Made by a program: the position numbers and the translations under genes
NCBI GenBank assembly: GCA_025435555.1
Contig: JAIWWG010000148.1
Coordinates: 1 to 54,715, forward strand
DNA from: Chytriomyces cf. hyalinus JEL632
Taxonomy: Eukaryota > Chytridiomycota > Chytridiomycetes > Chytridiales > Chytriomycetaceae
Length of the DNA stretch: 54,715 nt
Direction: 5' to 3'
Notes under the pieces: model-generated
What the model saw: the letters and a program-made list of their open reading frames with translations, nothing else
Database searches by the model: none
Told to the model about the DNA's origin: nothing
Part shown: positions 13,219 to 43,583 of the stretch, piece after piece
Layout: every line of letters begins with the position of its first letter
Numbering within the stretch: position 1 is the first letter of the stretch

Positions 13219-13238
13219 TTTCAAAGTAAATATATAAC

Positions 13239-15788
13239 ATGAAAATAAACGTAGAGACAATGGAAGGTGAATATATATGCGTGCAAAGAAAGGTATTCGT
13301 CGCGTTGCTTGGCTTTGGCCCAGCCCAAAAAGCAAAGCAAAAACAAAAAAACAAGCGGACAACAGAAAACAGCTCCAAAATATTCCAAGCAATGATGGAC
13401 AGCATTGCGGATGACAGCAACAAAGAGGGTCCCATGACAGAGAAAGAGGGAGTCCAAACTGGCATGGGAGGAATGGACCCAGCAGTGTTTGCTCAACTAG
13501 TCTCGGCTCTACGCATGGCCACTCAACCGCATGCCACTCAACCGGCTGTCCATCTGGCGCCTGCCGCTGAGGCTGATGCTGGAGAGGCAAGCGCAAAATC
13601 AAACCCCGACTCCACTAGTGTCCCCGTATCAACGAGTGCACCGGGAAGCACGCTCACATCCGACCCGACCATGCTTACCGCTATTGCTTCCATGCTGGCT
13701 GCCAAAGGACCTATAGGAGCAATGCAAAATACCGATTTTACAGCACTGTCAGCCTTCATGCACGCTTTGTCTGCCGTAATGCCACCTCCTCAGACAAACA
13801 CACTGCTTGCACTGCCACCTGCACCCGTCTCAGCGCCACCACTAACTACTTTTCCAACTCCATCCATTTCACTCTCTGTCCCTCAACATGATGCAACAAA
13901 GATGCTCCTGCGCTCGCTCTCGGTCAAAGCTGCGTTGCTTGCCGCCCGTGCTCAAGAACTGGCGGTTGAGGAAAAACACGTGGCGGCATTAAAAGTGAAG
14001 ACGCGTTCGACCGAGACGGACCTGACACGCATCAGAACTTCATTGAATGAACTGGAAGCGCGTCTCAAGGATGAAAAGATTCGGTTCGATCAAGCCGAAG
14101 CGAGATGGATTCAAAAAGATGCAGTGTGGAGAGAAGCAGTGCGTTTTTGTTGCTTTGACGTATCTTGTGTGAAAGCTCCTCTAATTTTTGTTTTCCAATT
14201 GTGGTTCCAACAGGTGGAACAACTGGACGCAAAAAAGGAGGAAGTCCGCGAACTCGAACGCGCTGTGTCTGATCTAAAGAACGATGTTCGCCGCGAAACG
14301 GGCTTCGACCCTGAAAATATCGCTGCGCTTCCAAGCCCGATGGATTCCAACATGTCAAAATCAGACAATGAAGTGGATTCCTTCTTGCGCGGCGTCATAC
14401 CAGATCGGAGCTCGGATATTTATTGCGACTCTGTTGGAAAGTCGAGTCAGCTAAGTTTGGCCAATCCTCGCATCAAAATCGTTGAACGCACCAGCGCTCT
14501 GTCTCCGCCATTAGAATCTCCAGTGCGGAGCCACTCGAGCTCAACTGCTGCGCAATTTGGATCGCGTAGCGCGGATTTGCGCAATGTTTTGGAAAATGAC
14601 CGGAAACGATCGATTCATAGCTTGGCTGGTGATGGGGACGCATCCACGCATTCTTTAGTGCGCAATAGCAGTTTATCAAGTGCCAACAATTCCACTTCTT
14701 CCAACAGCGTTGCAATCACAATTGTGGAGCGCCGTCCAAGGGGAAGTACGACCTCGGCAGAGCGTGCTCATTCCCCGTCATTCTCTTGTTCGACCACGGC
14801 AACTTTATCCCAGGCATCAGCGACCCCGCACACACTTTATTGCCTCGCATTCAATCAAAACAAGTGCATTCATTCCAGTTCTAGTTGCCAAAACGTTCAT
14901 GGATGTCTCTACTGCCACAGCACTCAACATTCCATTGTGAGTTGCCCTTCTCAGCGTAACATTTGCGTGACTTGGAACATGAGCAGTCCTAGTGCTTCAT
15001 GCCCAAGCTCTTGTCGACGCGAACACCGATGCCTCCGATGCGCATCCACATCCCACAAGCTCATCAACTGCCCACATCCAGCAGACCAAGGCCTAGAGTA
15101 CTGTTTTGCGTTTAATGCGTGGGGGATTTGTCGGTTTCATGGAAACGGGGAGTGCGGTCGGGCACACTTTTGCATGCGCTGCATGAGTGAAGAACATGCT
15201 GGATTCAAGTGTCCGCAAAATGTTGGCGAGTATCCTCGAAGTGTTAAAGCGGCTGCTGGCGATGGCTCGAATCCAAGCAATTCAACGTCTGTATCTTCCA
15301 GAGAGAGGGAGAGAGATTCTAGAGAAGTGAGTAGAGAAGGTGGTGGCGGAAGAAGCAACAGCAATGCCGTCACGTTATCGCTTTCAAGCTCGGAGAAACG
15401 CCAGAGTGACAATTTGCACGAGCGTGGCGATGACAAGCGGGCTCGAAACTCGTATCGTTCACGAAGCAGGAGCCCAATCAAGCGCAACGGAAGCATAAGT
15501 GGCAGCAGTACGAGCCGTGCGATTGTTGTTGAAGACAAGCGAAGTACTTCCACTCGTCCAACAGAAACCAACGGAAGTACCAGCAGCGGTGCCGCACGTC
15601 GAGACAGTACCAGCAGCGGGGGCAGTGGGTTCTCCATGTTGACGCATAGTGAACGCGGATCCGTGTGCCGTGACTTTAACAACAACAAGTGTGCTCTAGT
15701 GGATACCAAGTGCCGTTTCCGACACGTTTGTTTGCGATGCGGTGATTCTAGCCATCAAGAAAAGAGGTGTCCGCATACATCTGTTTAG
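13239..15788 (+). CDS. Protein with four composite CCCH+CCHC zinc modules
   Basis: This is a large, probably RNA-binding protein. One intron, 14139-14213, is predicted (GTGCGT...CAACAG). It is 75 nt long and has no stop, so retention would keep the frame. Translation may begin at 13239 or, more likely given the leader, at the ATG pair 13392/13395. The order is: low-complexity P/S/A region; coiled coil (ALKVKTRSTETDLTRIRTSL onward, and QLDAKKEEVRELERAVSDL); serine-rich linker; then zinc modules at about 14839-14950, 14962-15078, 15097-15222 and 15661-15780. Each module is C-x7/8-C-x6/7-C-x3-H (C-x11-C-x3-C-x3-H in module 2), one residue, then C-x2-C-x4-H-x4-C. Between modules 3 and 4 is an RS-like stretch (YRSRSRSP). 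No family name was recognised. Confidence 0.85.
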   Translation: MKINVETMEGEYICVQRKVFVALLGFGPAQKAKQKQKNKRTTENSSKIFQAMMDSIADDSNKEGPMTEKEGVQTGMGGMDPAVFAQLVSALRMATQPHATQPAVHLAPAAEADAGEASAKSNPDSTSVPVSTSAPGSTLTSDPTMLTAIASMLAAKGPIGAMQNTDFTALSAFMHALSAVMPPPQTNTLLALPPAPVSAPPLTTFPTPSISLSVPQHDATKMLLRSLSVKAALLAARAQELAVEEKHVAALKVKTRSTETDLTRIRTSLNELEARLKDEKIRFDQAEARWIQKDAVWREAVRFCCFDVSCVKAPLIFVFQLWFQQVEQLDAKKEEVRELERAVSDLKNDVRRETGFDPENIAALPSPMDSNMSKSDNEVDSFLRGVIPDRSSDIYCDSVGKSSQLSLANPRIKIVERTSALSPPLESPVRSHSSSTAAQFGSRSADLRNVLENDRKRSIHSLAGDGDASTHSLVRNSSLSSANNSTSSNSVAITIVERRPRGSTTSAERAHSPSFSCSTTATLSQASATPHTLYCLAFNQNKCIHSSSSCQNVHGCLYCHSTQHSIVSCPSQRNICVTWNMSSPSASCPSSCRREHRCLRCASTSHKLINCPHPADQGLEYCFAFNAWGICRFHGNGECGRAHFCMRCMSEEHAGFKCPQNVGEYPRSVKAAAGDGSNPSNSTSVSSRERERDSREVSREGGGGRSNSNAVTLSLSSSEKRQSDNLHERGDDKRARNSYRSRSRSPIKRNGSISGSSTSRAIVVEDKRSTSTRPTETNGSTSSGAARRDSTSSGGSGFSMLTHSERGSVCRDFNNNKCALVDTKCRFRHVCLRCGDSSHQEKRCPHTSV

Positions 15789-16251: not shown

Positions 16252-19200
16252 ATGACTGGTGGAACATCTGACGCTCCAGCAGGTCTGCCCCCTTGGATAC
16301 CGTCTGCCCCACACACACTCACTCCCTTATACAGGCTCTGACACAGACCATCCCATCATCTGGGTCGCAACAAACCCACCGAAGCCGGCGGCAGTCTGGA
16401 GCCCAGCCCGCTTACTCGACCAGAACAAGGTCGACGATACCTTGGCCGACAATGCTGACGAAGACTCCGAGCCTGAAGGTGAAATCGTGGAGGAGGATGA
16501 GATGGACTTGTCACCGGCATCCTTGGCAAACTTTGTGGTGAGAACAAGAAGGACAAAAGGACACATTTTAAAATGTCACCCACCCACTTACTTGTATCTC
16601 TCTTTATTTTAACAGGAAGAACTGCGAAAGGACTTGAAAGTGTTTGCGTTCGAGATGGCCAAAGACCGAAATCTGCGAAAAGCCGAAACCAAAAAGAGCG
16701 TCAACCGTTTCTTTTCAACTTTGGACAACAAACAACTTTCGGACACCAAGTCCCAACCGATTCAAAACAAGGCCATTGCAAAGTCGCTCGAAGCGTTTAC
16801 AGACTTGTACAAGGCACAGAAGGGTCTCCCCGTCAAGATGGCTGCGCTTCGTCATATTGAAACGATTCTGCGATACATGGCCGAATCACCGAACGATGCC
16901 AGCAAACATCATGAGGAATATTCTTCGCTGCTGGACGCGCAAATCGAAATTCGGGAATTAAAAGCGACTCTAGCCATGAAAGAGAAGGAGTTGTCGGACC
17001 TGCATGAACGGTTGAACAATTTGAAAGAGCAAAGGCATTCGATTCAAAGCCTGCTGCCAAAACCAAGCATTGAAAAGCTGGCTCCAGTTGCCGCATCCGC
17101 GTTGAATGTTTCTGGAATCTTTAACAAGATTCGACGCGGTTCTGGTTTCTTTTCAACTGCTGCATCTGCACCCACTCCCACCGTCATCACCGAAACAAAA
17201 AACGTTACAGCCTTAACGGTCATCGATCCGCATTCCCCACCAAAGTCGATCGAGACGGATCTTCAAGCATCTCTTGGCGCTTGCGGCGGTTGGTTTCAAG
17301 AGAAGGAAACATACGACTTTTTCATTTCATACCGCGTGTCATCTGAGGCACGCGTGGCAATGGAATTGTACTTTCGATTGAAGGATCAAAGAATCATGGA
17401 TGAAAGGGGAAATTCCAGACAAGTGACCGTGTTCTGGGACAAGGAGTGCCTCAAAAAGGGACAGGTGACCAGTTGGTCGATCATATCGATGGATTCTTCA
17501 TTCACTGAAACGACAAAATAGGACTGGCGCGATGGGTTCGTGCAAGGGTTGAAAAACTCGAGATGTGTTCTGATGCTTGTGTCTGGTGGCGCAACCGAGC
17601 CAATGGTTTGGTCGAATGAAAATCCCGACAATGTTTTGTTGGAATGGGAAACCGCTGTCATGGCTGGCCAAAAAAATATTTGTGTGCCTCAACCAGGTAA
17701 ACACAAATCCATTCAACTTCTGTCCTGTTGTTTTTCTAACGGCAAGTTCCAATCCAAAAAAAAGTCTTCATCAATGACAACCTGAAAGGCATCAAAGGCT
17801 TGGACGACGCCAGCAAATTCCTCAAGTCCGACAAATGTCCGACACTACGTCCAAACAAAGCAGATGCGCACAAATGGGCCGCATCCAAAACCCTGTACGA
17901 AGTCAAACAAATCCAAGGAGTCCAATTGGACGTGAATGAAGTGTCATGGTCAATTCCCGACTTGATCAAAGCATTGCAAACGTACGCCCCGTTGCAGATG
18001 AAGGCCGCAGCGAATCAGTGCGCGACAGAAGCGTCCTTCTTTCAACAGTTTCCGGACACTTCTTTTGATAGCACCGAGTTTAATATCAAGTTCTTGTCCA
18101 GTTTTGATCTGATGGAGCTGTTTGGGTCTGAAAAGGATAAGAAGATTGGGATTCTTGAATATCGCAAATCGTTGAAGCATTTATCCGTGTCTTTCAGGAG
18201 TAAGTGTCTCTCACTGATCAGCAGGCATCTCACTAACCAACACGCACTTCAGCTAATCCGAGAATGTCTAGGAATTCGATGGAAATTCTCACACACGGTC
18301 TGAAACAAAATTACTCATTCTTGAGAACCATCAACCTCAGTGGTAATGCCTTTTTCTTTCCATAATTTGGTTTTTTTCTCTGTCTCACAATCCTTCACGG
18401 TCGTTGTGCTGGCCAACCTCAGGAGCCAATCTTGCCGACAAGCAGATATGGAACCTTCTGACGGAAGCCTTAAAAGTGAATAACCAGTTGGAGTCCATGG
18501 ACCTGACCGACAATGACCTGACAGGACTTCCAGACCCATACAAGGTCATTGAAAACCACAACAGCATCTATTCATGCACAATGGGCTCCAATGCCGGTTT
18601 TGAAGCGACAAGTTTACTCAGAGACGGAATCGAGCCAAACACCTACTACACAGACATGGACGCATACTCACTCCTCCTCTTGACAGAGTTATGGGAATAC
18701 GGCAAACCGCGAATGGAAATGATTGTGTTTGCTTACAATAACACAAACGTGAAGGAGGAAGACGTGCCAGAGAGTCTTGGACTGTTGCTGGGAAAATTGC
18801 CGGGATTGAAGTCGATTGAGATTCAGTCTGAGGCGCTTATTGGGGCATTGACGACGTGTATTGTGAACAGTGACACGATTACGGATATTTCTATTGGGTT
18901 GGCGGAGAGTGCGAAACCGGCAAAAAAAAAGAGTGGCAGTGCTGGAGCGAATGTAAAGGACTCGGGAAGTAACAAGATTGGTAGGATTGGAATTTAGTTG
19001 TTTTTTGTGATATTGCGAAAGGCCGTTCTTATCCAAACTTTTTTTATCCCTGCAGAGAAAAAGCAATCGCAACCATGGATGAAGCCTCTCTGTGACGCTT
19101 TAGTTCGTCGAGGAAAGGAACTTGCGAAACAGGCTGCGCTGAAAGCAGCCACGGAGGAGGAGGAGGCACGAAACGCGGAGACACTTGAACATGAGCGTAA

Positions 19201-21556
19201 CCCGGCATCTGAACACGAACGATCCCCTGCTGGAAGCGCGGACCAAGTAAATGAAGAGGGGGCTGAGGAGGATGACGAAGAAGAGGAGGAAGATGATGAT
19301 GATGAGAGCGGCAGTGACAGCGATGATATTATCGAAGACCACAAGTTGTCGCTCTCATTGAACAGTATGTGTCCTTCAATTTTTTCTGCCGTTAAGTAAT
19401 CAGTGCTCCGCCTATTGTTGCAGACCTTGGACTCACTGATCAGGATGTTACTCTCCTTGCCAACGCGTTCCGCAAGATGAAAAACGGCCTTGCTTATTTG
19501 ATCATGGATGGTAAGTGGAAGTTCACTCGCAATAGTTGAAAAAATCTCAAACACTTTCGTCTTTTCCAGAAAATGAAATCAGTGCTGTTGGATTCTCGTC
19601 ACTTCTCAAAGTATTCACAAACGCTTGCACGGTGGACACTTTGAGTCTGGATGGAAACAATATTGGCCCTGGATGCGCAAAGGACCTGCACAAGTTTGCC
19701 CGTGAAGCAACTGGATTGTCGGGCCTGTATCTTGCAAGTGAGGGTCCAACTGTAACTCATGACTCTATCAAAGAATGCTCACAAGCTATTGATGACCAGG
19801 AAATCCCCTTGGCGAATCGGCTGTGAAAATGCTGTTTGAGGGTCTTGCGATGAATGAGAACCCTACAATTGAGAGATTGAGTTTGCGGCGTAATTGTGAT
19901 TTTGTTCACCTGACACAAGTATTTCTGTCGCTCATGGTATTTTTTTTGATAGAAACAAACATTGCTGATAACGCCGCAAGGGCTATTTCAACTGCAATTG
20001 AAGGTCTCTCTGCATTGGATTTGCTTGACTTGTCCAGTAAGTCGCTGTAATTCTCAGGTGCTTTCAATTTATTCACTTTCCCCTTTCCTCTTTTCCCAGA
20101 AAACGATTTCACGAGCAGTGGATTTATTGCATTGGCGTCTGGCCTCCACAGCAATAAAAGTCTCACGAACCTTACGATATGTGGTGAGTTCCTTCAATCA
20201 GAGTTTGTAATGCTCCTGGTATTAATACTTTGACTTGACCTTGATCAGACATTCCGATGAACGAAGAGTCGGTGGATGCATTCGTCAACGCGTTGAAAGC
20301 AGAAGACCGCACTTTGGAACACCTGGACGTTTCCCAATGCCAACTTGGGGACGCGTTGGCCGCCAAGATTTTGAATTTGTCCACAAAGGAATTTTCGGTT
20401 GACATTTCATGTGAGTGTAGTCGTTCTTCGGAAATTGTCCAAAAGTCTCACCCTTGCTTTTTATTTCCCCAAGCCAATGGCATTACGGGAGACACACAGT
20501 TTACAGAGGTGTTTTGCAGCAAAATTCTGGCGGGTGATATTTTCCGATGGCAATTTGAAGGTAACTTACTCCTCAACTCTTGGCCATGGAAAACTAACCA
20601 ACCATGCTATCTCACGCTGAAGATGACAAACTGTCGCTCGAGTTTTTCAAAAAGACTGCAGAGGCGCTTGCAACAATGGGACGTCAGAAATACGACGAGT
20701 GGACAAAACTTGTTGACGAAGCGTGGGACAACCACTGCAAAGAACAATTGGCTCAAAAACTTGCCACAGAAGAAGAAGAATCAGAGGAAAGTGCTGAAGA
20801 GGTTCCTCAAGTTGCTGAGGGTGAAGAAGAAGGGGTTGCGGCTCCACTGACCAAGAAAGACATGCATGCCGAAACTGCTGTTGAGCCATTTTCGGAATTG
20901 GCATTTGAAGGTGAAGCTTGCTGCATTGCATTTTGAGGAAAGATGGGATGGTTTTTAACTTCTCTGATTAGATTGCTTGCTGGATAATGAACGAGTAGCC
21001 GCTCTATTTTCGTGCATCCCTGACTGGACATACCCGGTCATTAAACTAACGAGTGAGTAGGAGTTGCGTTTGAAGTGTCCATCGGCAGGCTAAATTTTTT
21101 AACTGCACGATCAGATTGTGGTTTGGACGATACAGTCATTGACCTTCTCCTTGAACGCCTCACCATCAGTCCTTTGACACTCGCAGGAGAAATTACCTTG
21201 AACGGTAACTTTAGACATGTGTTGGCAGTCGAGGTTTCTAAACAACAAAACGTGCAGCAAACGATCTGACTGAAAGGGGTCTCGAGAAACTGCTCCTGGC
21301 TTTGAAGAACTTGGACCAAATCCGGCTGGAAGGATCGTACGAGTACCCGCGTGACCCGTTTTCCATCTACTGCAAAGGTAACGAAGAGTGCCACCAGTGG
21401 TTATGAAAATGGGGTTTACTGACATTTTTAACGCGTCTCTTTTCAGAAATCCCGGTTTCAGCCGACTTTTACAGAAAATGGGAGTTTTTTACCTCAGAAC
21501 TCCAAACTGTTCAGTTTTACATTAACGCTGTGGAAGAGATTATCATCGACGTGTGA
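16252..21556 (+). CDS. TIR-LRR protein with SARM1-like TIR domain
   Basis: Twenty exons join with consistent phase to about 1,366 residues. Starts: 16252, 16335, 16616, 17522, 17765, 18253, 18423, 19056, 19424, 19570, 19800, 19953, 20100, 20249, 20474, 20623, 20972, 21115, 21258, 21447. Residues 1-80 are acidic. About 80-300 are helical, with a coiled coil (IEIRELKATLAMKEKELSDL). The TIR domain, about 310-490, starts YDFFISYR. It continues with VTVFWDKECLKKGQ, then a strand CVLMLVSGGA, then EWETAVMAGQKNIC, and a late GVQLDVNEVSW block. E404 in EWETA aligns with the catalytic glutamate of SARM1-class NAD+ hydrolases. From about 565 on, ribonuclease-inhibitor-type LRRs (LSLDGNNIGPGCA, LEHLDVSQCQLGD) alternate with an acidic exon at about 781-884. 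No NB-ARC or NACHT motif was seen. An NADase or immune/self-recognition role is inferred. Confidence 0.88.
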
Positions 21557-21745: not shown

Positions 21746-22152
21746 AACACCATACTGATTGGGCAGCGAATCAGTGCGCGACGGAAGCGTCCTTCTTTCA
21801 ACAGTTTCCGGACACTTCTTTTGATAGCACTGATTTTAATATCAAGTTCTTGTCCAGTTTTGACCTGAAGGAGCTGTTTGGGTCTGAAAAGGATGAGAAG
21901 ATCGGGATTCTTGAATACCGCAAGTCTTTGCGGAATTTGTCCATTAGATTGTGGTTTAGACGACACAGTCATTGACGTTCTCCTTGAACGCGACAATTTG
22001 TGATCTTCGATAATACCATCACCACTTTCCTCTTCCTCCTCCTTAGCCCCTTCATCATTTACTTGGTCCGCGCTTTCACTGGGGGAACGTTCGTGCTCAG
22101 AGGTCACGTTATGTTCATGTTCAAGAGTCTCTGCGTTTCGCGCCTCCGTCTG

Positions 22153-22183
<31 letters not shown>

Positions 22184-25100
22184 GTTTTCAGTGCAGCCTG
22201 TTTTGCAAGTTCTTTTCCTCGGCGAACTAACGCGTCACAAAGTGGTTTCATCCATGGCTGCGATTGCTTTTTCTCTGTCGGATAAATTATTGAGAAGACG
22301 GCTTCCAAAAACTGAAATATCAAACAAATCAACGTTATTTACCAATCTTGTTACTTCCCGAATCCTTTGCATTCGCTCCAGCACCGCCACTCTTCTTCTT
22401 TGCTGGCTTCGTACTCTCGGACAACGCAATAGCAATATCCGTGATCGTGTCACTATTCACAATGCATGTCGTCAGTGCTCCGATAAGCGCGTCAGACTGG
22501 ATTTCGATTGTCTTTAATCCCGGCAATTTTCCCAACAGCCGTCCAAGTCTATCTGGCACGTCTTCTTCCTTAACGTTGATATTATTGTAAGCGAATGCGA
22601 TCGTTTCCATTTGCGGTTTGCCGTACTCCCATAACTCTGTCAAGAGTAAAAGCGAGTGGGCGTCCATATCCGTGTAGTAGGTGTTTGGCTGGCTTCCGTC
22701 CCTGAGTAAACTTGTCGCTTCAAACCCATAATCGGAGCCCACTCTGCACGAATAGATGCTGATGTGGCCTTTGATGGCTTCGTACAGGTCAGGAAGTCCC
22801 GTCAAGTGTCTGCTTATCGGCGAGGTTGGCTCCTGAGTCGGCAGAAAAGACGACCAGAGTGTGAGATGTGACATAAAAATTAAAAGCAAAAGTGTTACCG
22901 CTGAGGTTGATGCGTCTCAAGAACGGGGAATTTTGTTTCAGCCCGTGTGTGAGAATTTCCATCGAATTTCTTGACATTCTCGGATTAGCTGAAGTGTGCG
23001 TTGGTTATGAGTGAGGTGGTTGATGAATGAGATAACTTGTGAGTGGGGTCAAATGAGTGTCGCTTCCAACTTACTTCTAAAAGACATGGTGCAATTTTTG
23101 TAAGATGCAGACTGGCGAATGGTCTACTCTCAGAGAAACTCCCGCACTCACTTGTAAGTCCAATAAATGGGCATGACCAGTCAGGGATACACGCAAACAG
23201 AGCCGCTGCTTGTTCAATATTCACTTGGCAATCTGATCTGAGACGTTAAGACTGCAAACCATCTTTCATTCGCAAGCAAGCTTACCGTTAAAGTCCAATT
23301 CCGAAAAGGGTTCCACAGCAATTTCGGCATGCATCTCTTTCTTGGTCAATGGAACTTCAATCGCAACGTCACCCTCAGCCACCTCAGTAACCACAGAAGC
23401 ATCTACAACATTTTCCCCAGATACTTCTGTCGCTGCTTTCTGAATCGATTGTTCTTTACCGTGCTTGTCCCACGCTTGATCAATGGCTTTCGTCCTCTCC
23501 TCGTATTTCTGACGTCCCATTGTTGCAAGCGCTTCAGCAGTTTTCTTGAAAAACTCGAGCGACATTTTATCATCTGGAGTGGAAGAGCGGGTGTTGGTTG
23601 GGTGGGTTTACAGTTGGGGGGTGGAGAAGGAATACCTTCAATTCGCCACAGCGAAATCTCACATGCGAGAATTTTGTTGCAAAACACTTCTGTATTCTGT
23701 GGCTCCCCTGTAACGCCATTGGCTAAATTAAGCACTCGTGTGTAAGTGTGTGATTGGAGGCAAATGAAGCGAAGGTTATACACTCACATATCATGTTAAC
23801 TGTAAACTCTTTTGTAAACAAGCTCAAAAACTTGGCAGCAGATGTGTCCCCAAGCTGGCATCGCGATAAGTCCAAGTGTTCCAAGGTGCTGTCTTCCGCT
23901 TTCAAAGCCTTGACAAGTGCATCGACTGATTCTTCGTCCATCGGTATATCTTGTTTCAAAGTCAAAAGAGTGAATACCCAAGCGTCATGTTTGTCGAAAA
24001 ACTCACCAGAGAGCGTCAAAGTCTTGAGACTTTTGTTGCTGTTGAGGCCAGACGCCAACGCAGCAAATCCGCTGCTCGTAAAATCGTTTTCTGCAAAAGA
24101 GGAAGGAGAAAGATTGAATATTCACAGCAATGAGCATTACTGCGACTTACTGGACAAGTCAAGCATATCCTAAGCAGTGAGCGCTTCAATTGAAGTTGAA
24201 ATTGCCCTTGCCGCGTTATCAGCAATGTTCGTTTCTGCCAAAAAAAACAGTATGAGCGACGCTAAGGCTGGTATCTGACAATGGCACTTACGCCGCAAAC
24301 TCAATCTCGCAATTGTGGGTTTCTCATTCATCGCAAGACCCTCAAACAATGACTTCACAGCAGCGTCACCAAGGGGATTTCCTGTTCAACAGCATTTACT
24401 GAGCGTTCTGTTGAGCAGTGACGAGTCGTCATGAAAACTCACTCGGCAAGGTACAGGCCTGACAATCCTGTTACTTCACGAGCAAACTTGTGCAGGTCCT
24501 TTGCACAGCCAGGACCGATATTGTTTCCATCCAGACTCAAACCGTCCACGGTGCAAGCGTTTGTGAAGACTTTAAGGAGTGACGAGAATCCAATCGCACT
24601 GATTTCGTTTTCTGAAAAATAATAACGAGCAGACGTGAGATTTCAAGTATTGACTGGCGGTTCCATCCATATTTACCGTCAAGAATCAAGTAACCAACGC
24701 CGTTTTTCATTTGGAACGCGTTGGCAAGGAGGTTCACATCCTGATCAGTAAGTCCAAGATCTGGTAAATATAGAAGGGCACATATTACGAAAACAGGGAC
24801 GAAAAGTCAAAGCGGAAAAATTGGGGGGTTTGCGAACTGTTCAGTGTCAGCCTCGCCATCAGTCCTTTGAAACTGGCAGGATTCATTATCTTGAATGGTG
24901 ACTTTTACATATTTGTTCGCAACTCGGGGGTTTTTGAACACCAAAGCTGTGCAGGAAACAATCTGACGGAAAGTGGTCTTGAGAAACTGCTTCTTGCATT
25001 GAAGAGCCTGGACCAAATCCGTGTTGAAGGATCGTACGAGTACCCACGCGACCAGCTTTGCATCTACTGTCAAGGTAAAGAAGAGCGCGCCAGTGTTTCC

Positions 25101-25256
25101 GAACATGGGTTACTGACATTTTTACGCGCTCTTTAGACCTTCCCGTTTCAGCTGAATGGTACAAAAAGTGGGAGTTCTTAGTGTCAGAACTCCAAACTGT
25201 TCAATTCTCTTTGAATTCTGTGGGAGAGACTGTCGATGACGTGTGAGCCCCGATAG
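21745..25256. pseudogene. Scrambled partial copy of the TIR-LRR gene
   Basis: This is a rearranged paralogue lacking the TIR domain. On the plus strand, 21760-21950 copies the end of exon 5, fused to the first half of exon 18 (about 21950-21996). From 21996 to about 24760 the copy is inverted. Read 5'-3' on the minus strand it gives exons 9 (24760), 10 (24611), 11, 12, 13, 14, 15, 16 and 17 (about 23238-23158). It then restarts with the last bases of exon 5, followed by exons 6 (about 22993), 7 (about 22845-22345) and 8 (about 22280-22000). The plus strand resumes at about 24845 with the second half of exon 18, then 19 and 20 to the stop at 25245. Exon 7 has a deletion with frame loss, and exon 12 carries an in-frame TAG near 24170. 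Most other exons stay open, so decay is fairly recent. Confidence 0.85.
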
Positions 25257-25301
25257 ATAGATTTTACACGTTTCCAAAAATAAACTGCTATTTTTACATT
25301 T

Positions 25302-26372
25302 ATGAACCTTCTGTCGAAATCAAAACACGCGACTCCCAACAAGGCTCGCCGCGCAACTCTTCTGGCGCTGGTGATTCTGGCGGCACTGTCAGCCGCATTC
25401 TCGCGGTCGCTTCAAGTGCGCACGGACACTGAGAAAACACTGCTGCAACCGAACTCAAACCAAGTCCCATTAGAGCACATCGGATTGACAGAATCAACGG
25501 CATTCCAGCCAACCTCATCTTCCTATATTCCACAGCGCATCTTCCAAATCTTCAAATCGTCGCGTAAGGAAGACTGGAACAGCCGGAGACCATTTATCGA
25601 AAGCTGGACACGCTTAAACCCCGAATTTGGGCACACGGTCGTGGATGATGACGCAGCATTGGAGTTTGTTGAAAAGCACTTTGATTCAGACGTGTTGGAC
25701 GCGTACCGCAGCTTTCCACTGATAGTCTCACGGACGGACTTGTTGCGGTATCTTTTGATATGGGAGCATGGCGGGCTGTACACTGACGCTGACACGGTCT
25801 GTGAGAAGAGTGTCGGAGAAGGTTTTGAGACGTGGACGGAGGGACGTGAAGACGTGTTGTTTATAAGCAGTATTGAGGTGCGTTGACAGCAGAGAAAATG
25901 GTTATTTGAGAACTGACTCTTGCTGCAGTGGTTTAAGGATGAGTCACAACCCGACTCACGTCCAAGCACGAGCATTACGCAGTGGTCATTTGCTGCCGCG
26001 AGGCGTCATCCAATCTTGGGCAACCTCATCCGCGAAATCACAAATGCGACTTTAACAGCAACTCCGCAGTTTCTTAGTGACCGCAACAATGTAATTTCGT
26101 TCACAGGGCCGAGTATTTATTCCCGACATATTCGAGAGTTTATGCTTGAGTTTGGTGAGGATTTAGAGGCGGCGGTTGTTGCATCCAAAACAGGGCCATG
26201 GTGGTTTCCCAAGAGCAAAGTGCTGATCCTGCCTCGCAATGCATTCATGGCAGACGCAACGTGGAACCACGGGATTGAATTAGGAGACGCATACGGGTTC
26301 GTGAGCCACAAGTTTGCTGGCAACTGGGAAGACGGATGGAAGATGAAGGATAACAACGCTGTTAATAAATAA
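25302..26372 (+). CDS. GT32-family glycosyltransferase (Och1-like)
   Basis: This is a type II Golgi membrane glycosyltransferase, likely alpha-mannosyltransferase class. Two exons, 25302-25877 and 25929-26372, give 339 residues. The N-terminus is short and basic, then a single membrane anchor follows (TLLALVILAALSAAFS). The catalytic region starts IPQRIFQIF and contains SRTDLLRYLLIWEHGGLYTD. The DAD triplet just after that is the DxD metal/nucleotide-sugar motif. The C-terminal half has VISFTGPSIYSRHI and an H/G-rich end (WNHGIELGDAYGFVSH, then a W-rich tail), as in Och1/GT32 proteins. The donor sugar is inferred from the family. It lies directly downstream of the TIR-LRR copy, and its 5' end was duplicated with that copy at 21614. 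Confidence 0.88.
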
Positions 26373-26400
26373 AATTCCAGAAGGCCAACCGAAGAATTGG

Positions 26401-29400
26401 ATGAAGAAGCCAGCAGCCAAACCAGGCGTTCCTCCAACGCTGACAACGCTCCCGCCGGATGTCGTGACTCTGATCGTGTCGTTCCTGCCTGTCGCGGATC
26501 TGGGCCGAGTGGCCTTGGCGTCCAGACGCATCAAGATCCTTTCGTATGCTGACGGCGTCTTCCTCCCAAAGTTGCTTAATCTCGGGGTGTCGCTGGCTCC
26601 ATCGTCACTTCCAATCGAGAGTCAGACAGATGATATGACACGGCTTGCTCTCAGACTGAAACAACTCCCTGGCGCGAACCTCATGTCAAACAATATCCGA
26701 TACCTCGAAACGGGGTCCCTGTTTGCGAATACGGATGTTGTTGATGTTGTTGATGTGTTGGAGACGACTGAAGCGGCTGTCTCCCCGCACGACTCTGCCA
26801 AAGACACTTCAGACAAAACAGGGCCAGACTCTTCCACAGATCCTCTTCCTCCTTCATCAAATACGTCTCCTATTCAGTCCTCTGCGGGCGGATCTGCTCC
26901 CGACGTTTCTGGAGATTCCACAGTGACTCCGTCCCCCAAAAAAATATCAGCAGCGTTGCCATCAATGAAGAAAAGCGCTTTAGTCGTTGGTGCGGGTGGC
27001 TTGAAGGCAGCTGGAAAGACGAGCTCTGCTATATCGATCGGAGGAGCGCGATCCAAATCACCATCCGTGTCGAACCAACTCACATCGACAAGCGCATCTG
27101 GCACGAAACCGATTCGAACGCCAGACGGGCTCATGTACTATCCCCAACTCAAGGGTCTGAAACCTCGAGATGCGTTCAAGATATTGTTCATTGAACTGTG
27201 CCCGTATTATCTCGATTTTGGCGAACACGCCAAGGACAGCAAAGTGTTTCGGGACCACAAGGATATGGTTGCAGTGTCACAGCTGCTGCATCGCGTGTTT
27301 CTGTTTAGTCGCGCGAAATTGATTCTGGACTGTGATGACATCAACTTGGCGCTTGACACGACGATCGAGTGGTACGAGAGCATGCTGCTGGCGCAGTTTG
27401 AGCGCGCCTATGACGCAAAAACGATTCTGGAAATGAAAAGAAACGCGCTCGCTTGTTGGGAACTCAACGGCGGCATGACTTGCGTCAACTTGTTTTGTTC
27501 AAAGAATCCAATCTTTTTCGATGCCACCTTCAATCCAAGTCTGGTTGCTTCAAAGCTTCCAAGCGCAGCGACTTCTACGGCTGAGGTTGGGCCCTTTTTT
27601 TTTCGCAGCCTTTTTGCTGTGACACTTCTGCAAGCAATTCTCACACTCTCAACTCACACAGGCCCGTGGATACGCGTTAGCTGACGATTTCGCCCACTTT
27701 ATTGACCATACCCTATCCTCATGTACGACGCAAGCAACAATTGTCGGTCAAGTGTTTATCCCCGAGATGGACGCCATGACCACGTTCGTGTCCCGCGTGT
27801 TTGAAGACTCCATTGCCGAATACCTGGTTGCAGTCTTGGCAGCAGCAAGGGATGGAGAAGGCGTGGCGATATACCTGCACACGCTTGCAACGAGTGTGCA
27901 CTGCTGCAGTCAGTTTTTGGAGTATGTTGCCGTTGCAGATGCCAGGGTTAAAGTTCAGACGGATTTGATTCGTGGGGCCATGAAACGGATTTTTGCGCGA
28001 GACTGGGACAAGTACATGCAAGCGGAGATGGAGCATTTGGGGAAACGGATGGAGACTGAATTGAGAAAGTGGAAGAATAGGGTAAACACTACTTGCGAAC
28101 TGTTTTTTTTATTTTTTCCATATTCCCAACCCCACCCATGCTGAACACTCACGTTATTTTCTGGGGTAATTTAGAAAGAAAGAACCGGCTGTGGTCCAAA
28201 ACGGCCAGCAGCCTACCTTGCTGACGCGGAAAAAGCAATGGCTCACAAACGCGAAGTCATGTCCACCTTTAAAAAAGTATTATTTGCCCCAGTGGCCCTC
28301 GGGAAAGCAGTCGGCAATACTCTCGGGAACGCCGTCATGGGATCCAGATACAAGAACCAAACCGAGTCATTACTGGACGAACCGGATTCGGGCTGGGTTG
28401 AAAGCGATCCATCGACTCCGACGAGCGCGCTCGGCCCGGCCATGAATGAGACTGTTACATATCATTTGGATGACGGATCCATTGGTTCGCTCGTGTCGCT
28501 GGAATTGTGTTTGACTCTCATGCACATGAGTAAAGAGAGTTTGGGCCGTGTTCTTGTAATCACATCAAACATGGACTATGCTCTTCTGAAAGTGAATGCT
28601 GGAAAAGTGTTTGTTCGGTTGTTGCAGGCTGTTGGTGATGGGCACATGAACCCTGCGTTCCGAACGTCTGTTGTTATTTTTATCTTTGGTCATCTTTCCA
28701 TGCTCAACGCTGGTTCTCTCACACAAACAATAGCGCGATATCAAGACTGGAAAACTCTCAACCTGTCGATAACTGGTCTGAGAAGGCCGTCAATGTCGAC
28801 TCTCTCCAGTTTTTCGAACTTGTTCATATTGCCGATCTCGTGCATCAGATGCTTGATGTTTACTTTACAGAGGATGTGGTAATTCCATCGTCGGAGTTTA
28901 AAACGCGCCTGACTTTCTTCTTACTTTTTTTATTGTAATGTTCCACAGCGGCCCTGGATCGATGAAAACGATTTCCTCTCTGACGTAATGATTGAAAAGA
29001 AATCGTACGACCGCAACTCAGACGACAACGTGGCGCACGGAATGGACAAGGCCATCCAAGTGCTTGTGAACCAAGTGGACCACATTCTCGACACGCAGCA
29101 GAAACCCGCCGATTACAACCCACCAAACGAAAACGTGGTGTATGACTTTAGACCGACTGCGGCTTGTTCCGACGTGATTGCGTGTTTGAATGCACACACG
29201 CGTTTGTTGAATGGAGTGACAAATAAGGATACGCTGGAAGTGTTCTTTGGTGAGGTTGGAATTCGGTTGTTCAAGTAAGATGTCTTTTATGCCGTGTCTC
29301 GACTCTGCATCTGATCATCTTTTATTTTGTTTCGTCGCAGTGTCATTTGCAAAAACCTGAAAAAGCAGCAAGTGAGTCAAGCAGGAGCACTGCAACTGAT

Positions 29401-31430: not shown

Positions 31431-33697
31431 TTTCTACGAGTGAGTTATTCGAAATGCTGGTTCATGAGAATCATGGATTCGTTTGCGGCGCCAGCCACAT
31501 TCTGTTTTGAGTGAATTTTATTTTGCCGGCCACAGCTTGTGTAACACTCAAAGTAGCAGGGGTCCTCAGCGGCAGTGGCGGCAATCTGAAGACGCAAACA
31601 TGACGGAACGGGGATCTTGTCGCTGTCTCTCTGGGTTCGACGTGTCGCTTTACTGTCGCGATGTTTCAACATGAATAAAGGACGTGTTTGCAGGCATTGC
31701 AGCATTGTCAAGTTTTGTTGGAGTTGGATTCGCTTTAATTCAACAGCGAAAACGCAACGGAGTGATGTTTTCCATTCAGTATTGACTACACACAGATTTC
31801 AATTTGCTTTATTATCAACAACGCCTTCAACCAATTAAACCACAAGACCGGCGACAAATTCTTTTGCACCAGTTGGTTTCACGTTCGGAAAAAGTTTGTT
31901 GTGGTTGTGCGACAGCAGTCCCTGCCCCCTCGCCGTTGCCAGCAGCAGTTGCACCTGCACCCACTCATGTCCCTGCGCTGTTTCCAGTCGCTTCTCGAGC
32001 TTCTCAACGGATGTATAAGTCGTTGAGAAGGACGACTTGACTCCCGGCACATGGATCACGGCGTTGGACACGAGTTCGCGCGCCTGGTTCCATGTGAACC
32101 GATCTCCTTCAAACTTGAGCGTCTTGTTGCGAGAAATGGCTGGATCGGAGCGAAGAATTTCGGCAAGGTACCGTGCCACATCCGCTTGAAGAGTCACAGT
32201 CACCGGCACATCTCCCGTTCCAGCAATATCCACTGCCACAGATGTCCCAGAAATCTGCCAGTTGAAGAACGGTGAAAAGAAGCCTTCAAGAAAGTATCCG
32301 TTTTCAACAAAAGTGTGTTCGAGTTTGGATGCAATTTCTTGGCTTCGCAGGAGTTGCCGGATGGGAACCTTGGCACCGACAAATGGGATGCTTGGCGCGT
32401 GCAGGTCCAAGTCAACGCCAAACTCGGAGGGAAAGAATCGCTTGACTCCGGCTTGTACTGATGCATGGATCAAGTGGACTTGTTCGGAAAGACCAGCGGC
32501 GCCAATCACGGAGACGAGAGCATCCACACCTTTCAAAGATTCGGCGAGAGCAGGAATGGCGGCAGCAGAGAGTTCGGATGGAATTTTACGCGTCTCAGCA
32601 CCAAGAGCAGCGAGATCTTTAGAAGTCTTGGATTCTGGATCACGAGTGAGGAGAATGACAGCATCAAATTCTCCCTTCGTTGTCAGGAGGTTCTTGATGA
32701 GTGCTTGTCCAATGGTGGAGGTACCGCCGACGACGGCAATGTTCTTGAAGGCAGGCATTGTTGTTGTTTTGGTGGTGGAAGTGGTTGAGTTGGGTTTGGA
32801 GATTTTACAGGCGACCGAGACGTGTTATTTATGGACGTGTTTCGGGCATTTGAAATATGCGAAATATTTTGAAAATGAGGCAATGTTTCCGCCTTTGAAA
32901 TTGATATTGCGCCATACAGGCACAACTCCCGAGTAATTGGCAGTCAGTTCTGGATGCTGCTCTTTTTCGTCCATTCTCTCATCCCTGATATCTTCCTCGT
33001 GTTCTCCAATTCTGATTGGCACATGGCTGGCCCTTCCCTCAGACCCACATCGCTTCTAAGCAACAGGAGTTTACAGTCTGCGCTTGGAGTCAGCACTTGA
33101 GAAATGGTTCTGTGGTGGGCACCGTTGTTCAATTTGTAAAATTTTGAGGAAATGGAAATCTGAGGCATCTAAACTTTTTCGGGAAAGCATCGGCACACGG
33201 GACCCAGTTCTGAACATATCCTTGCGTTTATCTGGCGTCTCCATGCACGGAAATATATTGCAAACAAGGAGCCGAATGTTGACTTTTCTTTCCAAATGCT
33301 TCTATTTCTTGCAGCTGAACAAATTATCAAGCAGGGTCTAAAACTATGCAAAAAGACTGGCGATGTATTCCTTTGCGCTGATCGGTTTCACCTTGGCAAA
33401 GTAGCTATTGTCATTGCGCGACAACCCCTCGCAGCCACCAAGATCAGTTGCAGCGAAACAGACTCGAATCCTTGCGCCGTTTCAAGCCTCTTCTCAAGCT
33501 CCCCCACGGATGTTAAAGTAGTTGCAAACGTGCTTGACACGCCTGGCTTGGCAGTAACCGCATTTTGAACGAGCTCACGTGCCTGGTTCCAAGTGAGCTG
33601 GTCTCCTTCAAACTTGAGGGTCTTGTTTCGGGAAAGAGTAGGGTCCGCACGAAGCACTTCTGCAACGTAACTGCCAATGTCCGACTGATGGGTCACT
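31431..33697. repeat. Left arm of a 2,267-bp near-perfect inverted repeat
   Basis: This stretch is the reverse complement of 41721-43987. Both arms are the same length with no gap seen, and all translated frames agree except one residue (from a single a/g change near 31600). It contains one complete NmrA-like gene and the 3' part of a NmrA pseudogene. Identity starts abruptly at 33697 on the inner side. On the outer side it fades into diverged homology. Confidence 0.92.
31835..32758 (-). CDS. NmrA-like / isoflavone-reductase-like protein, left-arm copy
   Basis: This is an intronless gene of 307 residues. It encodes an atypical short-chain dehydrogenase that probably binds NADP(H). The N-terminal Rossmann loop is NIAVVGGTSTIGQALIKNLL. 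The mid-region has FFPSEFGVDLD, the signature of isoflavone-reductase/PCBER-type enzymes, followed by GAKVPIRQLL, where these enzymes carry the conserved K-x-x-x-R helix. The protein ends AKEFVAGLVV. It could be a true reductase or a redox-sensing regulator like NmrA; the sequence does not decide. The copy at 42660-43583 encodes an identical protein. Confidence 0.9.
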   Translation of the reverse strand: MPAFKNIAVVGGTSTIGQALIKNLLTTKGEFDAVILLTRDPESKTSKDLAALGAETRKIPSELSAAAIPALAESLKGVDALVSVIGAAGLSEQVHLIHASVQAGVKRFFPSEFGVDLDLHAPSIPFVGAKVPIRQLLRSQEIASKLEHTFVENGYFLEGFFSPFFNWQISGTSVAVDIAGTGDVPVTVTLQADVARYLAEILRSDPAISRNKTLKFEGDRFTWNQARELVSNAVIHVPGVKSSFSTTYTSVEKLEKRLETAQGHEWVQVQLLLATARGQGLLSHNHNKLFPNVKPTGAKEFVAGLVV

Positions 33698-34275
33698 GTG
33701 ACGGGTACATCACCGGTTCCCGGAATGTTTGCCGAGACGGATGGTTTGGACATCTCCCAGCCCAGGAATGGGGTAAAGAAGCCTTCAATAAAGTAGCCCG
33801 TCTCAATGAAATTGTGCTCGAGCTTTGAAACGACTTCCTCGCTGCGCAGGAGCTGTCGGATGGTGACTTTTTCCCACGTAAACGTCATGGTGGACGGGTG
33901 CAAGTCAACATCGTTTCCAAACTCGGAGGAAAAGAAGCGCTTGACGCCGGCTTGAATACAGGTGTGAGCCAAGTTTGCTTGGTTGGCGATACCTGTGATT
34001 CCAACAACGGAAACCAGGGCATCAACGCCCTTCAGTGATTCCACAAGGGGATGGCAGCGGCAGATAGCTCGGATGGAATTTTGCGGGTTTCAGCGATGGA
34101 ATTTTGCGGGTTTCAACACCGAGAGCAGCAAGGTCTTGAGAAGCCTTAGACTCGGGTCACGGGTAAGAAGAATGACGGAGTCAAATTCTCCCTTCGTTGT
34201 CAGGAGGTTCTTGATGAGGGCCTTGCCAATGGCAGATGTGCCACCGACGACGGCAATGTTCTTGAAGGCAGGAAT
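33344..34275 (-). pseudogene. NmrA-like pseudogene (second paralogue)
   Basis: The reading runs from 34275 to the ancestral stop at 33344. The initiator is ATT instead of ATG, directly before CCTGCCTTCAAGAAC. A single-base loss after the LLTRDP block shifts the frame. A short stretch (gaaacccgcaaaattccat) is tandemly duplicated near 34090, and a deletion follows. The centre is then open for 218 codons (SLKGVDALVSVVGITGIANQ, FFSSEFGNDVDL). A one-base change near 33410 shifts the frame again before the C-terminus. A TATAAATA box (34338-34345) survives upstream. The 3' part is duplicated in the right arm. Confidence 0.88.
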
Positions 34276-41720: not shown

Positions 41721-42074
41721 AGTGACCCATCAGTCGGACATTGGCAGTTACGTTGCAGAAGTGCTTCGTGCGGACCCTACTCTTTCCCGAAACAAGACCC
41801 TCAAGTTTGAAGGAGACCAGCTCACTTGGAACCAGGCACGTGAGCTCGTTCAAAATGCGGTTACTGCCAAGCCAGGCGTGTCAAGCACGTTTGCAACTAC
41901 TTTAACATCCGTGGGGGAGCTTGAGAAGAGGCTTGAAACGGCGCAAGGATTCGAGTCTGTTTCGCTGCAACTGATCTTGGTGGCTGCGAGGGGTTGTCGC
42001 GCAATGACAATAGCTACTTTGCCAAGGTGAAACCGATCAGCGCAAAGGAATACATCGCCAGTCTTTTTGCATAG
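41721..42074 (+). pseudogene. 3' fragment of the NmrA-like pseudogene in the right arm
   Basis: Only the C-terminal third of the second NmrA-like paralogue is present here (THQSDIGSYVAEVLRADPTL onward). It carries the same one-base frame change near the end as the copy at 33344-34275. The lesion therefore predates, or was copied by, the event that made the arms identical. It ends at the ancestral stop, 42072-42074. Confidence 0.85.
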
Positions 42075-42659
42075 TTTTAGACCCTGCTTGATAATTTGTT
42101 CAGCTGCAAGAAATAGAAGCATTTGGAAAGAAAAGTCAACATTCGGCTCCTTGTTTGCAATATATTTCCGTGCATGGAGACGCCAGATAAACGCAAGGAT
42201 ATGTTCAGAACTGGGTCCCGTGTGCCGATGCTTTCCCGAAAAAGTTTAGATGCCTCAGATTTCCATTTCCTCAAAATTTTACAAATTGAACAACGGTGCC
42301 CACCACAGAACCATTTCTCAAGTGCTGACTCCAAGCGCAGACTGTAAACTCCTGTTGCTTAGAAGCGATGTGGGTCTGAGGGAAGGGCCAGCCATGTGCC
42401 AATCAGAATTGGAGAACACGAGGAAGATATCAGGGATGAGAGAATGGACGAAAAAGAGCAGCATCCAGAACTGACTGCCAATTACTCGGGAGTTGTGCCT
42501 GTATGGCGCAATATCAATTTCAAAGGCGGAAACATTGCCTCATTTTCAAAATATTTCGCATATTTCAAATGCCCGAAACACGTCCATAAATAACACGTCT
42601 CGGTCGCCTGTAAAATCTCCAAACCCAACTCAACCACTTCCACCACCAAAACAACAACA

Positions 42660-43583
42660 ATGCCTGCCTTCAAGAACATTGCCGTCGTCGGCGGTACCTC
42701 CACCATTGGACAAGCACTCATCAAGAACCTCCTGACAACGAAGGGAGAATTTGATGCTGTCATTCTCCTCACTCGTGATCCAGAATCCAAGACTTCTAAA
42801 GATCTCGCTGCTCTTGGTGCTGAGACGCGTAAAATTCCATCCGAACTCTCTGCTGCCGCCATTCCTGCTCTCGCCGAATCTTTGAAAGGTGTGGATGCTC
42901 TCGTCTCCGTGATTGGCGCCGCTGGTCTTTCCGAACAAGTCCACTTGATCCATGCATCAGTACAAGCCGGAGTCAAGCGATTCTTTCCCTCCGAGTTTGG
43001 CGTTGACTTGGACCTGCACGCGCCAAGCATCCCATTTGTCGGTGCCAAGGTTCCCATCCGGCAACTCCTGCGAAGCCAAGAAATTGCATCCAAACTCGAA
43101 CACACTTTTGTTGAAAACGGATACTTTCTTGAAGGCTTCTTTTCACCGTTCTTCAACTGGCAGATTTCTGGGACATCTGTGGCAGTGGATATTGCTGGAA
43201 CGGGAGATGTGCCGGTGACTGTGACTCTTCAAGCGGATGTGGCACGGTACCTTGCCGAAATTCTTCGCTCCGATCCAGCCATTTCTCGCAACAAGACGCT
43301 CAAGTTTGAAGGAGATCGGTTCACATGGAACCAGGCGCGCGAACTCGTGTCCAACGCCGTGATCCATGTGCCGGGAGTCAAGTCGTCCTTCTCAACGACT
43401 TATACATCCGTTGAGAAGCTCGAGAAGCGACTGGAAACAGCGCAGGGACATGAGTGGGTGCAGGTGCAACTGCTGCTGGCAACGGCGAGGGGGCAGGGAC
43501 TGCTGTCGCACAACCACAACAAACTTTTTCCGAACGTGAAACCAACTGGTGCAAAAGAATTTGTCGCCGGTCTTGTGGTTTAA
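42660..43583 (+). CDS. NmrA-like / isoflavone-reductase-like protein, right-arm copy
   Basis: This gene is the mirror of 31835-32758 and encodes the same 307 residues. It keeps the GGTSTIG Rossmann loop, FFPSEFGVDLD and GAKVPIRQLL. A CATAAATA element about 75 bp upstream may act as TATA. Both copies have the full arm sequence on either side, including about 700 bp upstream, so both should have the same promoter. The third paralogue starts 460 bp downstream in the same direction, making a small NmrA cluster. Confidence 0.9.
   Translation: MPAFKNIAVVGGTSTIGQALIKNLLTTKGEFDAVILLTRDPESKTSKDLAALGAETRKIPSELSAAAIPALAESLKGVDALVSVIGAAGLSEQVHLIHASVQAGVKRFFPSEFGVDLDLHAPSIPFVGAKVPIRQLLRSQEIASKLEHTFVENGYFLEGFFSPFFNWQISGTSVAVDIAGTGDVPVTVTLQADVARYLAEILRSDPAISRNKTLKFEGDRFTWNQARELVSNAVIHVPGVKSSFSTTYTSVEKLEKRLETAQGHEWVQVQLLLATARGQGLLSHNHNKLFPNVKPTGAKEFVAGLVV

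Follow-up and report, generated by a model that had tools for sequence, protein, structure and literature searches.

Gene Organization and Protein Layout

The stretch of DNA considered here, referred to hereafter as the window, comprises positions 1 to 54,715 of contig JAIWWG010000148.1 (C55) of Chytriomyces cf. hyalinus JEL632. On its forward strand, positions 16252..21556 can be fitted by one gene, designated here as the TIR-LRR gene, that joins a TIR domain to an array of leucine-rich repeats (LRRs). The gene model, derived from the sequence, contains 20 exons and encodes 1366 residues with a single terminal stop. As predicted, the chain is composed of a SARM1-like TIR domain with an invariant catalytic-type glutamate, E402, followed by a conserved connector and a long LRR of the RNI type. 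An earlier note, prepared from the letters of the window, had likewise counted 20 exons and had placed the TIR domain in the middle of the protein, where it is indeed found (residues 305-495 of 1366). The motifs quoted in that note share one frame, with YDFFISYR beginning at residue 311, WDKECLKKG at 352, and EWETAV at 402, and with GVQLDVNEVSW located in exon 5. The genome had been described as "fungus-like"; the fungal character is correct but the qualifier is not, for Chytriomyces cf. hyalinus JEL632 is a true fungus of the order Chytridiales. The features of the locus are as follows, with the boundaries of the LRR blocks and inserts set by eye.

16252-16282, 16335-16537, 16616-17464, 17522-17696, 17765-18199, 18253-18342, 18423-18980, 19056-19364, 19424-19510, 19570-19737, forward strand: exons 1-10 of the TIR-LRR gene (gene model)
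19800-19889, 19953-20036, 20100-20183, 20249-20410, 20474-20560, 20623-20910, 20972-21052, 21115-21204, 21258-21377, 21447-21556 (stop included), forward strand: exons 11-20 of the TIR-LRR gene (gene model)
17294..17991, forward strand: TIR domain (residues 305-495), interrupted by two introns at 17465-17521 and 17697-17764 (Pfam TIR_2, PDB profile search)
17642..17644, forward strand: codon for E402, aligned with the catalytic E642 of SARM1 in two alignments and invariant in a TIR alignment of 15 members (A5)
17648..17650, forward strand: codon for E404, the choice of the earlier note, two residues past the aligned position and invariant in A5
17992..18195, forward strand: conserved connector, residues 496-563 (44-56% identity to five relatives)
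18196..18979, forward strand: LRR block 1, residues 564-780, with an RI-type motif at 617
18980..19354, forward strand: acidic insert 1, residues 781-880 (from the sequence)
19355..20630, forward strand: LRR block 2, residues 881-1140, with RI-type motifs at 882, 906, 934, 962, 992, 1020, and 1077
20631..20909, forward strand: acidic insert 2, residues 1141-1233 (from the sequence)
20910..21553, forward strand: LRR block 3, residues 1234-1366, with RI-type motifs at 1227 and 1349 (from the sequence and exon plan)
16616..17161, forward strand: charged region, residues 79-260, putatively helical or coiled as judged by eye
21763..25243, no strand assigned: rearranged partial copy of the TIR-LRR gene, with pieces of residues 501-1366 only, two blocks of which are inverted (from tblastn and from repeats)

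The introns are 52-80 bases in length, and all 19 are bounded by GT and AG, a feature that follows by construction from the GT(GC)-AG splice sites imposed by the modelling scripts. Phase 1 is observed for 17 of the 19 introns, and LRR block 2 displays mostly one repeat per phase-1 exon. Such a bias is the arrangement expected if the LRR array grew by the addition of single exons, each with its repeat. An alternative acceptor for intron 4, at 17746, would insert a few in-frame residues. An automatic model with 21 exons, in which a weak extra intron fell inside exon 18, was dropped; reading through exon 18 restores both an LRR repeat and the count of 20 exons.

The TIR Domain

When the TIR piece was analyzed by itself, it matched Pfam TIR_2 with an E-value of 4.2e-7 and a score of 30.9 bits (cut-off 28); with the whole protein as the query the score was 26.6 bits, which is below that cut-off. 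Throughout A5 (15 of 15 sequences) the TIR_2 match reaches E <= 0.01. A search of the PDB with the 15-member profile placed SARM1 at the top (E 3.7e-10), and SARM1 accounts for the first 17 of the 29 listed sequences; tir-1 (1.2e-5), AT1G72930 (2.2e-4), and TcpB (7.4e-4) are matched more weakly. The SARM1-like character attributed to this domain in the earlier note is supported. As a control, another TIR of the same genome was employed as a single-sequence query against the PDB. In that case the bacterial entry 3h16 appeared first (E 0.0087) and tir-1 third, with SARM1 present solely through an entry whose name gives SARM1 together with tir-1.

The alignment surrounding E402 and E642 of SARM1 is gapless in both the single-sequence and the profile comparisons. 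Within it, D594, E596, L598, G601, and E642 of SARM1 lie opposite D353, E355, L357, G360, and E402. The SARM1 residue numbers used here agree with a count of positions along its chain. The earlier note had assigned the catalytic position to E404, and this assignment was replaced given that both gapless alignments place E642 on E402, two residues earlier. Both glutamates are invariant in the 15 rows of A5, and hence the conservation of a catalytic-type glutamate stands, albeit at E402.

In PADLOC, members of A5 also match TIR models of a general kind that belong to several defence systems. The commonest match is to PDC-S66, found for 11 of the 15 members, and the models are too general to name an origin for the domain. 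In one scan of genome contigs with A5 for close prokaryotic relatives, 19 stretches were matched by pattern and none was confirmed, an outcome with which a bacterial origin would be compatible.

The Leucine-Rich Repeats and Domains Sought

Residues 561-1366 contain 10 RI-type LRR motifs, as compared to 1.6 +/- 1.2 in shuffled sequences, and none of 2000 shuffles reached 10. Their spacing is mostly 28-30 residues, in keeping with the RNI type, which is defined by repeats of 28-30 residues and the pattern LxxLxLxxNxL. The Pfam LRR_6 model falls below its cut-off in the window protein (20.5 versus 23.4 bits) and lies above it in the relatives P0001, P0003, P0006, P0014, P0015, and P0022. The motif count against shuffles, together with the LRR_6 matches of the relatives, upholds the previous description of RNI-type LRRs extending to the C-terminus.

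The Pfam models for NB-ARC and NACHT gave no match to the window protein at E-values up to 1, and a pattern search of the protein revealed no P-loop, in agreement with the earlier note, in which no NB-ARC or NACHT motif had been found. Likewise, no match up to E 1 was observed for HET (PF06985), which sets the protein outside of the fungal HET-domain family. No membrane helix was detected, the top 19-residue hydropathy value being 1.31 within the LRR region.

Copies in the Genome and Selection

Two further copies of the gene are found in the genome, both without stops or frameshifts. The copy on contig C194 has 20 exons and encodes 1378 residues; that on contig C233, which is the more diverged, has 19 exons and encodes 1366 residues. 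The compared stretches of the window contig and C194 (from about 199756) are collinear with 82-89% DNA identity, and the C194 copy may therefore lie on a diverged haplotype or else represent a homeologue or a segmental duplication. Between the two, exons are 92.7% identical and introns 79.0%. Introns occur in the C194 copy at all 19 places and with the same phases as in the window gene, although this agreement is partly by construction inasmuch as the C194 boundaries were placed by alignment to the window protein. P0019, the model deposited for the C233 copy, has its start within the TIR domain. Over the first 729 of its 748 residues it is identical to our own C233 model from residue 387 of the latter onward, and it departs thereafter. 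Note that P0019 runs from the TIR helix carrying E402 and E404 on into the LRRs.

No TIR piece was found by tblastn in the rearranged partial copy that lies downstream of the window gene. The C194 stretch lacks this partial copy, and there the end of the gene joins directly to sequence matching 24850-26466 of the window. Just upstream of the TIR-LRR gene, at window positions 13230-15788 on the forward strand, is an open frame of 852 residues with abundant Cys/His clusters; the match to the C194 copy extends to the end of this frame as well.

The ratio of nonsynonymous to synonymous substitution rates (dN/dS, Nei-Gojobori) for the TIR domain is 0.007 for the window and C194 genes, 0.034 for the window and C233 genes, and 0.033 for those on C194 and C233. 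In each of the three pairs it is the lowest of ten blocks. For the LRR blocks the values over the three pairs range from 0.020-0.247, 0.163-0.293, and 0.120-0.225. A sliding comparison of the window and C233 genes (67 windows, each 40 codons long) gave no ratio of the corresponding proportions (pN/pS) above 1, the top value of 0.66 being located in the linker before the TIR domain. These pairwise averages are crude counts by which a few positively selected sites could be missed. The TIR-LRR gene is under purifying selection, and this is strongest on the TIR domain; positive selection in the LRRs was sought by the same pairwise counts and not seen.

Relatives in Other Chytrids

Three protein searches yielded 18, 22, and 14 proteins, for a total of 37 distinct sequences. 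The relatives represent a lower bound, given that scoring in the two full-length searches was limited to the candidates with most words in common, 7998 in one and 8000 in the other. Full-length TIR-LRR relatives occur in Obelidium, Podochytrium, Siphonaria, Rhizoclosmatium, and Entophlyctis, of which Obelidium and Entophlyctis belong to the Chytridiales, and proteins from Physocladia match in part. The junction of TIR and LRR is kept in these full-length proteins of other chytrids. The models from Obelidium, Siphonaria, Rhizoclosmatium, and Entophlyctis contain TIR and LRR in one protein, and both TIR_2 and LRR_6 are matched in four chytrid models (P0001, P0003, P0004, and P0006). Conservation is uneven along the chain. 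Relative to five of these proteins, identity amounts to 61-73% in the TIR domain, 28-39% in residues 79-230, and 20-36% in the LRR blocks.

All 33 TIRs of the tree set carry the motif DNV[LF]LE[WY]E, a count that is favored by the retrieval of proteins through shared words. Five of the 37 proteins (P0021, P0024, P0029, P0030, and P0031) showed neither the TIR motif nor any TIR domain among their listed domains and had been set aside prior to this count, whereas P0019 and P0028 carry the motif and lie outside the 33 rows of the tree. The tree, which is midpoint-rooted, comprises chytrid TIRs and one from another eukaryote. In it, 13 TIR-LRR sequences, including the three Chytriomyces copies, form one clade with a support of 1.0. 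The sister group consists of 11 proteins from Blyttiomyces, Zopfochytrium, Phlyctochytrium, and Dinochytrium (joint support 0.97), 10 of which have C-terminal ankyrin repeats among their listed Pfam domains. The same TIR subtype is observed in further chytrid proteins, either with LRRs and ankyrin repeats or with ankyrin repeats and no LRR match in the scan. In P0016, a kinase-TIR protein from a EukProt source, the motif reads DNVLLEYE.

Several of the retrieved proteins display other arrangements. P0037 from Siphonaria sp. JEL0065 combines an N-terminal TIR motif, an NPHP3_N (NACHT-like) domain, and WD40 repeats in one protein; when it was used as a PDB query, all 60 of the matches listed were to WD40 repeats, and the search was uninformative for its TIR. 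The TIR proteins P0011 (Entophlyctis) and P0012 (Physocladia) have N-termini that appear methyltransferase-like by eye.

Other TIR Domains in the Genome

Outside of the TIR-LRR family, PF13676 gave 15 matches in the genome, 11 of them above the cut-off, in a scan that read exons singly and in which the TIR-LRR family itself was missed. A looser form of the DNV[LF]LE[WY]E motif is absent from the open frames with other TIRs on contigs C123, C184, and C90. At C187:80000-99000 (L049, L050), three TIR matches lie amid open frames that recur in sets, with lengths of 494-518, 247-248, and up to 549 residues, and these are possibly TIR-NLR-like genes in tandem. The one 549-residue frame that was scanned consists of WD40 repeats, and a TIR match on C187 lies beside such repeats. 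On C211 a TIR match adjoins ankyrin repeats, as observed in a partial scan of the neighborhood. The matches at C37:67998-68213, C46:6235-6450, and C204:209549-209764 have equal scores and equal 189-residue frames, the TIR of which contains FFISYR and is 34% identical to that of the window. On C90 (L043) an open frame of 636 residues with a SPRY match is situated about 2 kb from a TIR frame on the same strand. Finally, the window itself contains an apparent inverted duplication at 31838-34089 (reverse strand) and 41853-43580 (forward strand), where open frames of 329 and 131 residues on opposite strands share their starting residues, MPAFKNIAVVGGTSTIGQ.

Proposed Function and Alternatives

We place at about an even chance the reading of the protein as a low-copy, apparently soluble TIR enzyme of chytrid fungi, either an NADase or a signalling enzyme, that would be controlled by its LRRs. 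TIR NADases work as assemblies, as is established for SARM1 and plant TIRs, and the TIR of SARM1 is held off by a sensor array. The presence of a catalytic-type TIR and an LRR in one chain, taken together with that restraint in SARM1, suggests a scheme in which the LRR would keep the TIR inactive until a ligand acting on the LRR released it. The freed TIRs might then self-associate, perhaps via the N-terminal region, as can be proposed from the assemblies in which TIR NADases function. E402 would cleave NAD+, the outcome being either a depletion that stops or kills the cell or a signal of the ADP-ribose type. The LRR would take the place of the ARM sensor of SARM1, and an ATP-driven step by a nucleotide-binding oligomerization domain (NOD) would be unnecessary. 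Possible, albeit with the balance inclined somewhat against it, is the more specific proposal that these proteins constitute a NOD-less family of LRR-gated TIR NADases in chytrids, a counterpart of SARM1 and the plant TIR-NB-LRR proteins (TNLs), which would stop or kill the cell by NAD+ depletion in response to an internal ligand.

Several observations weigh against an LRR-controlled TIR enzyme. With the single TIR sequence as a PDB query, SARM1 was again first, but with an E-value of only 0.067. The alignment of the profile with SARM1 spans positions 5-107 of 189, leaving the C-terminal part of the TIR unmatched. There is no Pfam match to ARM or SAM up to E 1 in the window protein, and SARM1 has both. 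The perfect motif count owes something to the manner of retrieval, a conserved glutamate by itself does not prove activity, and the autoinhibition and clustering are argued by analogy. In light of the divergence in the C-terminal part of the TIR, the domain could be envisaged as a non-enzymatic scaffold that assembles with other TIR proteins, with the LRR serving as a platform for partners or ligands as in Toll-like receptor signalling. The other TIR genes of the genome, with their 15 PF13676 matches, would offer possible partners. The nearest solved relatives, however, are NAD+ hydrolases, and a pure scaffold would not need the glutamate that occupies the E642-aligned position in every row of A5; the scaffold is fairly unlikely. 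A gene-model artefact, whereby the TIR and LRR would in reality be separate genes, is highly improbable. It derives some appeal from P0019, with its start inside the TIR and its departure from our own model after 729 residues, yet P0019 itself joins the TIR helix to the LRRs, four other chytrid models contain both TIR_2 and LRR_6, and the two further copies are free of stops and frameshifts. Separate genes were rejected on the basis of the three copies and the models from other genera.

The nature of the signal is a further matter. The earlier note had raised self/non-self recognition or antiviral defence, and this finds no support in a gene with few copies, present in several genera, and under purifying selection in the LRRs as well. 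A non-self receptor for parasites, viruses, or other strains, engaged in an arms race, would fit with TIR and LRR being the components from which immune receptors of plants and animals are built, and with LRRs that diverge faster than the TIR. Still, LRR dN/dS values of 0.020-0.293 in three comparisons and the lack of any 40-codon window above 1 between the window and C233 genes make it very unlikely. A conserved sensor fits better than such a receptor because the copies are few, are kept in several chytrid genera, and have LRRs under purifying selection. A small number of copies under constraint speaks more for a conserved signal than for a recognition repertoire that has diversified. These same features, namely few copies kept across genera and purifying selection throughout (top pN/pS 0.66 among 67 windows), would also be compatible with a TIR enzyme that serves an internal signal, whether metabolic or developmental (as in the change from zoospore to thallus), and has no role in defence. 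Such a function is nevertheless quite unlikely in view of the low LRR identity between genera, 20-36% versus 61-73% in the TIR, the rearranged partial copy adjoining the gene, and the related TIR-ankyrin proteins, which are multicopy in Phlyctochytrium planicorne (six) and more like a defence repertoire. Overall, the observation made in the earlier note is confirmed, its account of the anatomy is largely right, and its interpretation is partly supported.

Comparison with Known Systems

Animal SARM1 is an NAD+ hydrolase with the architecture ARM-SAM-SAM-TIR. It is the closest solved TIR by profile (3.7e-10), with the aligned glutamate and D353, E355, L357, and G360 in common, and, as in the apparently soluble chytrid protein, its TIR is preceded by other domains within a single soluble chain. 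The chytrid protein differs in having no ARM or SAM match and in having LRRs as its repeats, placed after the TIR.

For its fungal genomes, PMC2939053 reports neither a protein with TIR (PF01582) nor an LRR fused to NB-ARC or NACHT, and PMC4986451 describes fungal NLRs as devoid of LRRs and chytrids as devoid of NLRs. TIRs have been reported in NLRs from Chytridiomycota (PMC9815663), TIRs are stated to occur in fungi (PMC7075850), and HET is described as the TIR-like domain of fungi (PMC12881547). According to the 2026 TIR atlas (PMC13142454), a very small number of fungal TIRs had been reported before, and its own are from one species only, the chytrid Rhizoclosmatium globosum, with none in InterPro. 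Among the matches listed from the open-licence literature, none describes a fungal protein that joins TIR and LRR without a NOD. The TIR-LRR family suggests that the gap in these surveys lies partly in sampling and annotation, the deposited model of one copy, P0019, having its start inside the TIR. Were the more specific proposal true, an LRR-based TIR receptor would exist in the fungi, for which the absence of such receptors has been reported. An active enzyme would amount to an LRR-gated TIR NADase without a NOD ATPase, a simple design for studying the restraint of TIRs by repeats, and would place TIR-based cell death or signalling in zoosporic fungi.

With the plant TNLs the chytrid protein shares TIR and LRR in one intracellular chain; it differs from them in lacking NB-ARC and in a TIR that is not N-terminal, and the plant TIR AT1G72930 matches the chytrid profile far more weakly (2.2e-4) than does SARM1. 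Toll-like receptors also combine TIR and LRR, whereas the chytrid protein has no membrane helix (top hydropathy 1.31) and its LRRs are C-terminal to the TIR. The NLRs with TIR of chytrids and other fungi, such as Siphonaria P0037, are similar in having a TIR in a fungus and differ in having a NOD and no LRR. Moreover, the repeats of fungal NLRs are reported in PMC4986451 to evolve under positive selection, a pattern not displayed by the LRR counts of the window gene. The chytrid TIR-(LRR)-ankyrin proteins of Blyttiomyces, Phlyctochytrium, and Dinochytrium have the same TIR subtype and motif, and in some cases LRRs (P0015, P0022), but they are 1798-2632 residues in length and, in 10 of the 11 proteins of the sister group, end in C-terminal ankyrin repeats.

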